Part shown: positions 4,865-7,941 of the stretch, piece by piece
How the letters are laid out: each line of letters starts with the position of its first letter
Numbering within the stretch: position 1 is the stretch's first letter
Origin: a virus
IMG/VR virus record: IMGVR_UViG_3300027692_000039
Span: 1 to 21,130 of that record
Length of the DNA stretch: 21,130 nucleotides
Direction: 5' to 3' (one strand)
Program-made: the position numbers and the translations under genes
The notes under the pieces: generated by a model
Told to the model about the DNA's origin: nothing
Databases searched by the model: none
What the model saw: only the letters and a program-made list of their open reading frames with translations

Positions 4865-4890
4865 CGCTATCTCCTTTTGACCGTGGTGCC

Positions 4891-4919
4891 ATTAGATACC
4901 AAGCCGCTTGCTGTGTCAA
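4891..4919 (-). promoter_or_regulatory. Strong minus-strand sigma-70 promoter
   Basis: Read on the minus strand, TTGACA (4919-4914) is a perfect -35 and TCTAAT (4896-4891) matches the -10 consensus at five of six bases, with a 17-base spacer. The predicted start near 4884 gives a leader of about 20 bases containing AAGGAG before the ATG at 4864. Confidence 0.72.
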
Positions 4920-4948
4920 TAGGCTGCGCAAATATATTTTGCTGCGGT

Positions 4949-4959
4949 GCTTTTGTGCG
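4949..4959 (+). promoter_or_regulatory. Single copy of the GCTTTTGTGCG motif between divergent promoters
   Basis: The 11-mer GCTTTTGTGCG lies between the two divergent promoters, 9 bases before the -35 at 4968. The same 11-mer occurs twice in the array ahead of the second RHH gene (starting at 6705 and 6737). This suggests one regulator serves both regions. Confidence 0.5.
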
Positions 4960-4967
4960 TCACGGGC

Positions 4968-4997
4968 TTGACATATTGGATGGGCAATGATTACATT
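4968..4997 (+). promoter_or_regulatory. Plus-strand promoter for the first RHH gene
   Basis: TTGACA (4968-4973) is a perfect -35; TACATT (4992-4997) is a moderate -10 with an 18-base spacer. The predicted start near 5004 falls inside the palindrome at 5001-5024, so a bound repressor would block it. Confidence 0.58.
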
Positions 4998-5039: not shown

Positions 5040-5231
5040 ATGGATTCAACAACAACCACGGTTAGGATGCCAGTTCGACGCCGAAAACGCATCCCGGCAA
5101 ATTTTACACTTCTGCCTGAAACTCACGTCTACCTCGCCCGCATAGGCGATGGCAATCGCAGTGCTGCGATCGAGGAGCTCGTGAGGATGCACCGGGCGCG
5201 CGAGCTCACTCCGCAATCTGAATCTGCTTAG
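5040..5231 (+). CDS. Ribbon-helix-helix DNA-binding protein (Arc/MetJ type)
   Basis: The ATG at 5040 is chosen because the upstream in-frame start would lie before the promoter. The 63-aa product has a very basic N-terminal arm (VRRRKR at 12-17), a short strand (NFTLL), then two helices with the typical turn: PETHVYLARIGDGNRSAAIE, continuing ELVRMH. The turn with G-N-R-S followed by an Ala/Ile helix is characteristic of RHH repressors, which bind DNA as dimers with the paired strands in the major groove. With divergent promoters and a palindrome directly upstream, it is probably the local switch or an autorepressor. The target is inferred. Confidence 0.72.
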   Translation: MDSTTTTVRMPVRRRKRIPANFTLLPETHVYLARIGDGNRSAAIEELVRMHRARELTPQSESA

Positions 5232-5242
5232 CCGCTTTACCC

Positions 5243-6424
5243 GTGGCTGCGCGCCCAGATTTTGATGCCGCCCAGGCTGAGTACTTAGGTTTTCCCTCTC
5301 GCACGTCCGAGGGTGAGACAAAAGTGAACGGCCATGATGCAGAAGATCCCCGCAAATTACTCCCAGCGCGTTCACCATTGGACTGGGAGCGCCTCGAAAG
5401 CGAAGAGCCACCTAAACGCGAATGGGCGCTCGAGCATTGGCTCCCGCGTCATCACACGAGCCTACTAGCTGGTCGCGGCGGTATCGGCAAGACGCTCCTT
5501 GCCCAGCATTTGGGCACAGCCATGGCGCTTGGACGCAACTACATCGACGAGATCCAAAAACCATTGAGCGTGCTTTTATGGGCTGGCGAGGATGACCCAG
5601 GCGAACTGCATCGGCGACAAATACCTATTTGCCATCACTTCGGCGTGCCGCTCTCGGCGCTTCGCAATTCGTTTTTTGTGCAGTCCTATGAAAGCGAGGA
5701 CATCACGCTTGCGGGGCAAGTGTTCGGCAGCATGGCGCCCACGCAAATGATGAAAGAACTCACCGAGCAAGTGCAAGACTACAGCGTCGATTATGTGTTC
5801 CTCGACAATATCGCCCGCATTTACGGCGGAAATGAGAACGATCGACACCAGGTCACGCAGTTCCTAGCATGGCTCACTGCGGCCTGTAAACCTGCCGGCG
5901 TCTGTGTGCTAGGCCATCCATCAAAGGGGGCGCAATCAGAATATTCTGGCTCGACAGCATGGGAAGGCGCCGTGCGAGCTCGCCTCTACCTCTCGGATCG
6001 GCTCCCCGATAAACCGATTGATGATGATGAGCCCCCCGACGAGACTGTGCGCTATCTGTCACGTCGCAAATCCAATTACTCACCCAATGACTGGCGCAAG
6101 CTCGATCTAATCCAAGGACTACTCGTTGCAGAACAGCAAACATTCGAGCCACAGTCGCGTCAGGTGAGCGGGGAGTTTGCGCAGGATATCGTGCGCACTG
6201 CACTGCGCAAACTCACGGCGATGAAGCTCACTCCCAACCAGGCGACCGCATCGCCCGAGTATTTCCCCAAACTCGCATCCCAGTATCTATTGCTTGACAA
6301 GCTCAGCGAAAAACGCTTCGGCGCCATCATGCGCGAACTCATCAAAGAGGGCGAGATCCTCATCGGCGACGTGGGCTTTTATGCTAATCGCACCCCGAAG
6401 AAGGGATTGCTGCTGCGCAACTAA
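5243..6424 (+). CDS. RepA-like AAA ATPase (RecA-fold replicative helicase family)
   Basis: A 393-aa protein starting at GTG 5243; a second GTG at 5324, with GAGGGTGAG just before it, is an equally possible start. It has a Walker A motif GRGGIGKT (77-84), an AGEDDPGELHRR segment after the next strand (114-125), Walker B YVFLDN (184-189), a VLGHPSK sensor-like strand (222-228) and SGSTAWEGAVRARLYL (235-250). This order matches RepA-like hexameric helicases of plasmids and phages (AAA_25 group). The last ~85 residues look like a winged-helix domain. It would unwind the phage origin and recruit replication proteins. The gene is followed at once by a small Cys protein and then by a repeat array that could be an origin. 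Confidence 0.85.
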   Translation: MAARPDFDAAQAEYLGFPSRTSEGETKVNGHDAEDPRKLLPARSPLDWERLESEEPPKREWALEHWLPRHHTSLLAGRGGIGKTLLAQHLGTAMALGRNYIDEIQKPLSVLLWAGEDDPGELHRRQIPICHHFGVPLSALRNSFFVQSYESEDITLAGQVFGSMAPTQMMKELTEQVQDYSVDYVFLDNIARIYGGNENDRHQVTQFLAWLTAACKPAGVCVLGHPSKGAQSEYSGSTAWEGAVRARLYLSDRLPDKPIDDDEPPDETVRYLSRRKSNYSPNDWRKLDLIQGLLVAEQQTFEPQSRQVSGEFAQDIVRTALRKLTAMKLTPNQATASPEYFPKLASQYLLLDKLSEKRFGAIMRELIKEGEILIGDVGFYANRTPKKGLLLRN

Positions 6425-6631
6425 TGGAAAGGACGTGCCGCACTTGCAGATGGGCCGATGGGGCAGTTCAATGGCCGATACATCGAATGTCGAGTCAGCG
6501 CGCCCTCCGTTAACCTCAGCAACGGTAGGCCGTGGCCGCAGGTCAAGCCCTCCGATTGGTGTAGCCATTGGACGCAGACCGACCCGCCAACCAAAGAGCG
6601 CAAACGCCTCACTGTCGTGCACAAGAGCTAG
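6424..6631 (+). pseudogene. Small CxxC...DWC protein split by an apparent +1 frameshift
   Basis: The ATG at 6424 shares its A with the helicase stop (TAATG) and encodes MERTCRTCRWADG before the frame is soon lost (stop at about residue 30). The next frame, from about 6464, continues with QFNGRYIECRV, then RPWPQVKPSDWCSHWTQ and a basic tail ending at TAG 6629-6631. Joined across the run GGGG (6460-6463) with one G skipped, the two halves give a coherent 69-aa protein with CxxC, W, C, WPxV and DWCxxW. That is the usual order of a common phage small zinc-type protein. The break may be a sequencing error, a recent mutation or a programmed +1 frameshift. An ATG at 6458 could also start the second half alone. 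Confidence 0.65.
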
Positions 6632-6760
6632 TGCTCAAATGCACAAGTGCCACCTATGCTCTCTCACAATGCCTAACTAGTAGGCATTTGTGCGAGAGAG
6701 CAAGGCTTTTGTGCGGAATCGTGAACCATTTGTGCGGCTTTTGTGCGGAGACATTTGTGC
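6619..6760. repeat. Phased TTTGTGC motif array: iteron or operator cluster
   Basis: Five direct copies of TTTGTGC begin at 6687, 6708, 6729, 6740 and 6754, usually inside (C/G)(A/C)TTTGTGCG. The spacings are 21, 21, 11 and 14 bases, so the first four lie on one face of the helix. On the opposite strand, CACAA cores at 6620, 6642 and 6665 are spaced 22 and 23 bases. The array lies between the helicase gene and the second RHH gene in a gap without convincing coding frames. It could be the binding array of an RHH protein or iterons of a replication origin. Confidence 0.72.
6658..6701. repeat. Long imperfect inverted repeat
   Basis: Left arm GCTCTCTCACAATGCC (6658-6673) pairs with right arm GGCATTTGTGCGAGAGAGC (6683-6701), with three unpaired bases on the right. 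The 9-base loop TAACTAGTA contains the palindrome ACTAGT. There is no T-run after the stem, so it is not an ordinary terminator. It marks the symmetry centre of the motif array. Confidence 0.7.
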
Positions 6761-6768
6761 ACGTGAGA

Positions 6769-6798
6769 TTGGCTCAGAAGTTATTATCGTTCTATGAT
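6769..6798 (+). promoter_or_regulatory. Promoter giving a possibly leaderless mRNA
   Basis: TTGGCT (6769-6774) and TATGAT (6793-6798) are separated by 18 bases and match the consensus at four and five of six. The start expected near 6805 would fall only about two bases before the ATG at 6807. The motif array lies directly upstream. Confidence 0.5.
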
Positions 6799-6806
6799 TT
6801 GGTTTC

Positions 6807-6995
6807 ATGTCTCGCCTAACTCTCCTCAATGTCCCTATCGACCCTGAGTTGAAAGCCGAGCTCGCCACAGAAGCGTGGCTCTCGCGCTTGACGCTCGCAG
6901 AATATATCCGGCGCATCATCGAGCGCAGTCGCACGCCCGACGGCAAGCAGCGAGTGTGGGCGAAGATGCGCAAGCGCGGGCGGCCGAAGAGATGA
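6807..6995 (+). CDS. RHH protein with C-terminal AT-hook
   Basis: The 62-aa product begins with a strand (LTLLNVPID) and two helices (PELKAELATEAWLSRLTLAE, continuing YIRRIIERSR), as in RHH transcription factors. It ends in KMRKRGRPKR, whose RGRP core flanked by Lys/Arg (57-60) is a classic AT-hook for the minor groove. Having both would let the protein clamp DNA from both grooves. There is no Shine-Dalgarno site and the promoter ends just before the ATG, so translation may be leaderless. Its position right behind the phased array makes it the best candidate to bind that array and control its own synthesis or replication. Binding is inferred. Confidence 0.7.
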   Translation: MSRLTLLNVPIDPELKAELATEAWLSRLTLAEYIRRIIERSRTPDGKQRVWAKMRKRGRPKR

Positions 6996-7302: not shown

Positions 7303-7941
7303 ATGGAAAATGAGCATCCGACGGCGGTGGCGTACTACCGCACCTCGAGCGCAACAAACGTAGGCGCCGACAAGGATTCGTTGAAGCGCCAGGAGGACGC
7401 GGTGAGGGCCTACGCGGCATCGCACGGATTGACGATCGTTCACGAGTACTACGATGCTGCGGTTTCTGGCACTGATCTCGTTGAGGGACGCCCCGGGTTT
7501 AGCGAGATGCTGGCCTACATGCTGGGGAATGGAGCCCGCACGGTGCTTGTGGAGACCGCCGGCCGCTTCGCCAGGCACCATGTTGTTCAAGGGCTTGGGC
7601 ATGAGATGCTAAAGAAGCACGGCATTGCACTCATCCCAGTTGACTCGCCGGATCAGTTCACCGACGAGAGTCCGACATCGAACATGCTGCGCACGATCAT
7701 CTCCGCGGTGAGCCAATTCGAGAAAGAGGCGCTGGTCTTAAAGCTACGCAAGGCCCGCGAGCGCAAGAAGCGCGAGACGGGGCACTGCGAGGGGAGCCCT
7801 GCCGTTCCACGGGAAACGATCGAGGCGGCGAAGGCATTGCGGGCGACTGGGCTCTCCTACCGCAAGGTGGCTGCCGAGCTCGAGCGGCGCGGGATCAAGC
7901 GCTACGGCGCGCAGAGCATCAAACACATGGTGACGCCGTGA
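7303..7941 (+). CDS. Small serine recombinase (resolvase/invertase family)
   Basis: The ATG at 7303 is chosen because AGGAG (7293-7297) precedes it by 5 bases; the frame is open further upstream but reads through the repeat-rich gap. The 212-aa product starts with a VAYYRTSSATNVGADKDSLK stretch. The YxRTS motif carries the conserved Arg and the likely nucleophile Ser, and DSLKRQ starts the next conserved helix. GRPGFSEMLAYML and SQFEKEALVLKLR (long E helix) follow. A short C-terminal helix-turn-helix (ETIEAAKALRATGLSYRKVA) binds the site. Length and layout fit resolvases rather than large integrases. In a phage it could resolve dimers, invert a segment or integrate. The gene overlaps the next start (GTGA). 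Confidence 0.85.
   Translation: MENEHPTAVAYYRTSSATNVGADKDSLKRQEDAVRAYAASHGLTIVHEYYDAAVSGTDLVEGRPGFSEMLAYMLGNGARTVLVETAGRFARHHVVQGLGHEMLKKHGIALIPVDSPDQFTDESPTSNMLRTIISAVSQFEKEALVLKLRKARERKKRETGHCEGSPAVPRETIEAAKALRATGLSYRKVAAELERRGIKRYGAQSIKHMVTP

Follow-up and report, generated by a model that had tools for sequence, protein, structure and literature searches.

What is the dense array of short repeats that lies downstream of a RepA-like helicase gene in this viral DNA, and which protein reads it? The window, that is, the whole stretch analysed, is a virus record of 21,130 bases and is a fragment. An earlier note on this DNA offered two readings of the array, as an iteron origin of replication tied to the helicase or as the operator of an RHH protein encoded downstream. 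We favour the former. With a probability of about 0.74, the segment from 6618 to 6761 would be a phage replication origin of the helicase-linked, iteron type, or the part of such an origin on which the initiator is loaded. The features on which this reading draws are collected in Table 1.

Table 1. Features of the helicase operon and the adjoining repeat array (window coordinates).
Feature	Position	Strand	Remarks
Solitary iteron copy, GCTTTTGTGCG	4949..4959	+	ca. 8 bp upstream of the -35 element of the helicase-operon promoter
σ70-like promoter of the helicase operon, TTGACA-18-TACATT	4968..4997	+	Consensus match only
Small ORF, RHH-like by eye, gene 1 of the helicase operon	5040..5231	+	Replaced by a Fis-like HTH ORF in contig L027
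RepA-type (AAA_25) hexameric helicase gene, proposed initiator	5243..6424	+	Pfam AAA_25, E = 2e-32
Predicted C-terminal winged helix (helicase residues 309-393), proposed to bind the iterons	6167..6421	+	AlphaFold2 models
Degenerate inverted iterons left of the hairpin	6618-6628, 6632-6642, 6640-6650	-	Array matrix/motif positions
Central imperfect inverted repeat (hairpin), GCTCTCTCACAATGCCTA-ACTAG-TAGGCATTTGTGCGAGAGAGC	6657..6702		Right arm holds the iteron 6684-6694
Five direct iterons, 11-mers at 6684, 6705, 6726, 6737, and 6751	6684..6761	+	Consensus GCWTTTGTGCG
σ70-like promoter for downstream genes, TTGGCT-18-TATGAT	6769..6798	+	Consensus match only; abuts the last iteron
62-aa ORF, RHH-like by eye	6807..6995	+	73% identical in L027 despite a different array word

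The heptamer TTTGTGC occurs on the plus strand at 6687, 6708, 6729, 6740, and 6754, which confirms the spacings of 21, 21, 11, and 14 bases reported in the earlier note; only three further copies are present elsewhere in the window (4952, 5675, and 13896), and the minus strand has none. Inverted TTGTG cores at 6620, 6642, and 6665, left of the direct copies, are 22 and 23 bases apart. Direct and inverted sets converge, as had also been claimed, on a large, imperfect inverted repeat with arms at 6657-6668 and 6691-6702. The fold z score was -6.6 for the stem formed by this repeat and -4.5 for the whole array (6610-6775). A check for structured RNAs revealed no Rfam families in the window. In a scan of the 21 kb using 250-base segments, the array was the densest repeat, except for a tandem repeat at the contig end. 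At the start of the record (1-118), the 12-base unit CCCCCACGCTGG is present in 9.8 tandem copies.

The array had been described as directly following the helicase gene and directly preceding an RHH gene. The order of the elements holds in both cases, but a gap of 195 bp, with a 57-aa ORF (6458-6631) without a family match, separates the helicase gene from the array, unlike in many relatives, where the array begins right at the helicase stop codon. The RHH assignment was made by eye, since the ORFs starting at 5040, 6807, and 8295, though RHH-like in appearance, had no Pfam or PHROGs match.

The product of the helicase gene is a member of the RSF1010 RepA helicase family, both by the sequence of its core (E = 5.9e-8 in an hmmsearch against PDB 1g8y) and by its fold (the top four PDB matches returned by Foldseek were all RSF1010 RepA, the best with an E value of 1.6e-13). 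A winged helix was predicted at its C-terminus in two AlphaFold2 runs, with helices at residues 310-326, 341-347, and 356-368 and strands at 372-379 and 385-391. When modelled separately, the C-terminal domain matched a range of winged-helix proteins only weakly in Foldseek (best E value, 7e-3). Judging from these models, it is probably this predicted domain that reads the repeats. No primase was recognised in the window, and among the genes beside the helicase in this fragment, none was recognised as RepC or RepB'.

Relatives of the helicase were drawn from viral contigs, bacterial genomes, and named records, which together gave 64 distinct loci. An array was called when the copy number of some 8-mer in the region following the helicase was beyond all 20 shuffles. 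Arrays followed the helicase domain in 54 of the 64 loci, as against 13 of the 128 control regions taken from these loci (Fisher p = 6e-25). A lysogen with such a cassette is, for example, Sphingobium sp. YR768 (L022). Multiple short repeats beside the proposed initiator gene, as in an iteron origin, are found in the window as well. Most close relatives have a repeated word resembling GCACAAA/TTTGTGC, and distant ones have other words (TGCGGGA, CGGTGACC, and AGTTGGCA, for example); when the window's own weight matrix was used, the top sites fell in the post-helicase arrays of five relatives. The 33 arrays that hold both orientations contain 68 orientation switches versus 123 expected, so the copies are grouped by side. 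A stable central hairpin is present in most of the relatives that were folded, and it is G+C-rich in many relatives. Similarity of the words drops with helicase distance across 51 arrays, with Spearman coefficients of -0.51 for the C-terminus and -0.49 for the ATPase core (Mantel p = 0.001 each), a difference too small for the reading domain to be assigned. More distant helicase relatives, those of Squash, Minerva, and RHph_X2_26, have no such array, the scan of an Azospirillum match (L194) gave none above shuffles, and nothing but short repeats was seen after the helicase of L029, which is weakly related to that of L027. In sphingomonad-type prophages (L011-L015 and L018), the array falls inside the helicase gene itself, in a 3' extension that is in frame, from ca. 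420 to 120 bases before the end of the ORF; the putative origin would therefore be translated there.

A natural swap bears directly on the question of which protein owns the array. The phage of contig L027 is closely related to that of the window, with 78% DNA identity over the terminase region, and the contig is conserved on both flanks of the locus, at 4885-4941 and from 6831 onwards in window coordinates. Between these flanks, it has a different cassette, composed of a Fis-like HTH ORF, another AAA_25-like protein with 23% identity to the window helicase over 203 aa, and an array of ten or more GTCCGAA words around a hairpin. The product of the downstream ORF at 6807 is 73% identical in the two phages; thus, the word changed with the cassette while this ORF stayed. 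The swap also exchanged the small upstream ORF at the 5040 position. In a search for further cases among terminase relatives L030-L109, a helicase was detected by profile only in L032, which is the same contig as L027. The operator reading put forward in the earlier note, in which the RHH-like product of 6807-6995 binds TTTGTGC cooperatively and controls the promoter at 6769-6798, does not survive this comparison well. Small RHH proteins often bind short repeated operators, and the promoter-like site abuts the last iteron, but the 73%-identical protein of L027 follows an array of a different word, and no homologue of the 6807 product was detected in nine relatives with a post-helicase array, most of them with the same word, nor in the other loci tested. 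With the protein kept and the word lost in L027, and the word kept in relatives that lack RHH homologues, this reading is unsupported, and we consider it very unlikely. The earlier note's other proposal, an iteron origin tied to the helicase, is by contrast well supported by linkage, co-divergence, and the L027 swap.

The array may be an origin and still be read by another protein. As in RSF1010, a separate small RepC-like protein, either the 5040 product or one encoded outside the fragment, would then recognise the iterons and recruit the helicase. RSF1010 RepA is without iteron recognition of its own, which is supplied by RepC (PMC4234260), and the 5040 ORF is part of the helicase operon and was swapped jointly with the helicase in L027. 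However, no 5040 homologue was detected in relatives with the window's word, no constant partner gene other than primase was seen beside the helicase, and the helicase has an extra predicted winged helix that is absent from the region matched by RSF1010 RepA; we therefore regard a separate reader as unlikely. Other functions of the locus are less probable. Repeat arrays can occur as partition and pac sites, and a serine recombinase gene (Pfam Resolvase, 7303-7941) lies 500 bp downstream, as might be expected if the array served in recombination (res/attP), packaging, or partition and not as an origin. But L027 keeps its array while the small ORFs that flank the recombinase gene are only ca. 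340 bp apart there, too short a distance for the gene, the terminase genes are at least 2.2 kb away and conserved while the word changes, and it is with the helicase that arrays are associated, all of which makes such a role highly improbable. The least probable reading takes the hairpin to terminate or attenuate transcription past the helicase operon and treats the repeats as incidental. The stem is stable and stands at the end of the operon, but the hairpin at 6657-6702 has no T run or terminator-like site, multi-copy words in 54 loci would be left unexplained, and the arrays of the sphingomonad prophages are inside the helicase reading frame.

In the helicase-linked origin model, which we prefer, the product of the helicase gene immediately upstream would bind the ca. 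11-bp GCWTTTGTGCG repeats through its C-terminal winged helix, and the copies that face each other across the hairpin would serve to load it. The hairpin or its neighbourhood would then open and a primase would start DNA synthesis; relatives carry a primase fused to the helicase, as appears to be the case in L020, or adjacent to it. Linkage to the helicase, the layout of the copies, co-divergence, and the L027 swap were observed; from these and the predicted fold we infer binding, opening, the role of the hairpin, and origin activity. The helicase gene and the array appear to travel as one cassette, so that each helicase would keep its own word. The same protein probably also limits its own expression through the solitary copy beside the operon promoter. 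Against the weight matrix of the array itself, this copy, GCTTTTGTGCG, reaches a score of 16.66, while the best score in 20 shuffled windows was 14.46. The earlier note had seen in this 11-mer a link between two control regions; the copy in the window is indeed above chance, but no equivalent top-scoring upstream copy was found with the window's matrix in five relatives (L132, L133, L135, L020, and L167).

By analogy, the architecture has functional precedents in the initiator-gene-plus-adjacent-iteron origins of P4, PICI, pRN1, and IncQ. The PICI origin is located immediately 3' of pri-rep, with an AT-rich region between its two iteron sets (PMC6092414). PICI and SaPI are like the present locus in that primase and initiator genes, sometimes fused, are followed by an origin whose two iteron sets flank a central element, but here the initiator would be a RepA-type (AAA_25) helicase of tailed phages and phage-plasmids, and between the two sets there is a stable stem, G+C-rich in many relatives, in place of an AT-rich region. 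Terminase, portal, and further structural phage genes are also present on the element in the window, which counts against membership in PICI/SaPI. Replication of pRN1 depends on a stem-loop located after the gene for a primase-helicase that has a C-terminal winged helix, and in gel shifts the replication protein did not bind this stem-loop (PMC4234260), so that here, too, something other than the winged helix may be the reader. The order in pRN1 (orf56-orf904-stem-loop) and in a proposed equivalent, Bordetella phage BIP-1, is the one seen here, a putative small DNA-binding gene, a winged-helix helicase gene, and a stem-loop; pRN1 differs in having a prim-pol with an SF3 helicase and no iterons, while the protein considered here is RecA-like, of the RSF1010 RepA type, and is accompanied by iterons. 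RSF1010 (IncQ) itself, with RepA, RepB', RepC, and oriV, shares the homologous helicase core and an origin with iterons and stem-loops, but it needs a separate iteron-binding RepC, whereas here a winged helix is predicted to be added and the array follows the helicase gene. Satellite phage P4 is similar by description, with a winged-helix helicase that reads origin repeats and a linked primase, and differs in that alpha is one fused primase-helicase protein. The helicase of P4 alpha belongs to superfamily 3. Its C-terminal winged helix binds the origin repeats, and the primase is linked to it (PMC4234260). In principle, the element is of an ordinary kind, in which an initiator gene is accompanied by an iteron origin of its own. 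The form proposed here, a RepA-type helicase that has its own winged helix and a private origin of iterons and hairpin, spread over many phages and phage-plasmids as an exchangeable cassette, was not found described in the literature searched, where nothing on a RepA-like phage helicase with iterons was retrieved.

The same arrangement, a RepA-type helicase followed by an array, is present in four circular plasmids, Methylobacterium indicum pVL1_6, two Microvirga plasmids, and Rhodoplanes serenus plasmid 1. In all four, the array was the densest repeat in the stretch examined. A TOPRIM primase gene adjoins the helicase in three of the four (pVL1_6 and both Microvirga plasmids), and terminase, portal, and capsid genes are present on at least the Rhodoplanes plasmid. 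The Microvirga lotononidis plasmid (L196; 40,945 bases) has repB/repC in addition to the cassette of TOPRIM primase, RepA-type helicase, and array, and the helicase cassette may therefore be a second, lytic replicon there. In Wolbachia phage WO (KX522565.1; L111:5170-5378), an array of AGTTGGCA/AGATGGCA words is found after a RepA-like ATPase gene and is a candidate origin; the word "iteron" is absent from the phage WO genomics paper. We put at even odds the broader proposition that these loci represent a widespread, undescribed class of phage and phage-plasmid replicon, which would include the lytic origin of phage WO and in which a RepA-type helicase with its own winged-helix reader is exchanged between phages as one unit with the iteron-hairpin origin private to it, every cassette having a word of its own. 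Origins in phage WO and in many phages not yet cultured could then be located by a simple rule, namely, a repeated short word around a hairpin, directly after a RepA-type helicase gene. It would suggest that the helicase acts as its own initiator and that replicon compatibility groups exist among phages and phage-plasmids. With helicase and word naturally exchanged between close relatives, the specificity of the origin can be put to a direct test.

Two further properties of the array were followed into the relatives. Helical phasing, proposed in the earlier note, holds numerically for the spacings of 21, 21, and 11 bases, but not for that of 14, and the spacing is not kept in relatives. Adjacent copies in the same orientation peak at 9-13 bp, which reflects packing, and gaps of 15-50 bp across the arrays have no helical phase (Rayleigh p = 0.24); phasing as a rule of the family was therefore rejected. 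The GC-skew analysis suggested in the earlier note placed the cumulative minimum of the window, a fragment, at 6677, that is, at the array, but the minimum is 2-5 kb upstream of the array in five relatives (G003, G004, G005, G007, and G008) and elsewhere in others; it lends weak support at most and was not used as an origin locator. In many distant relatives (L011-L019), a second recurring element, AAGTCATTGAAA, is present between the iterons and is possibly the site of another protein.
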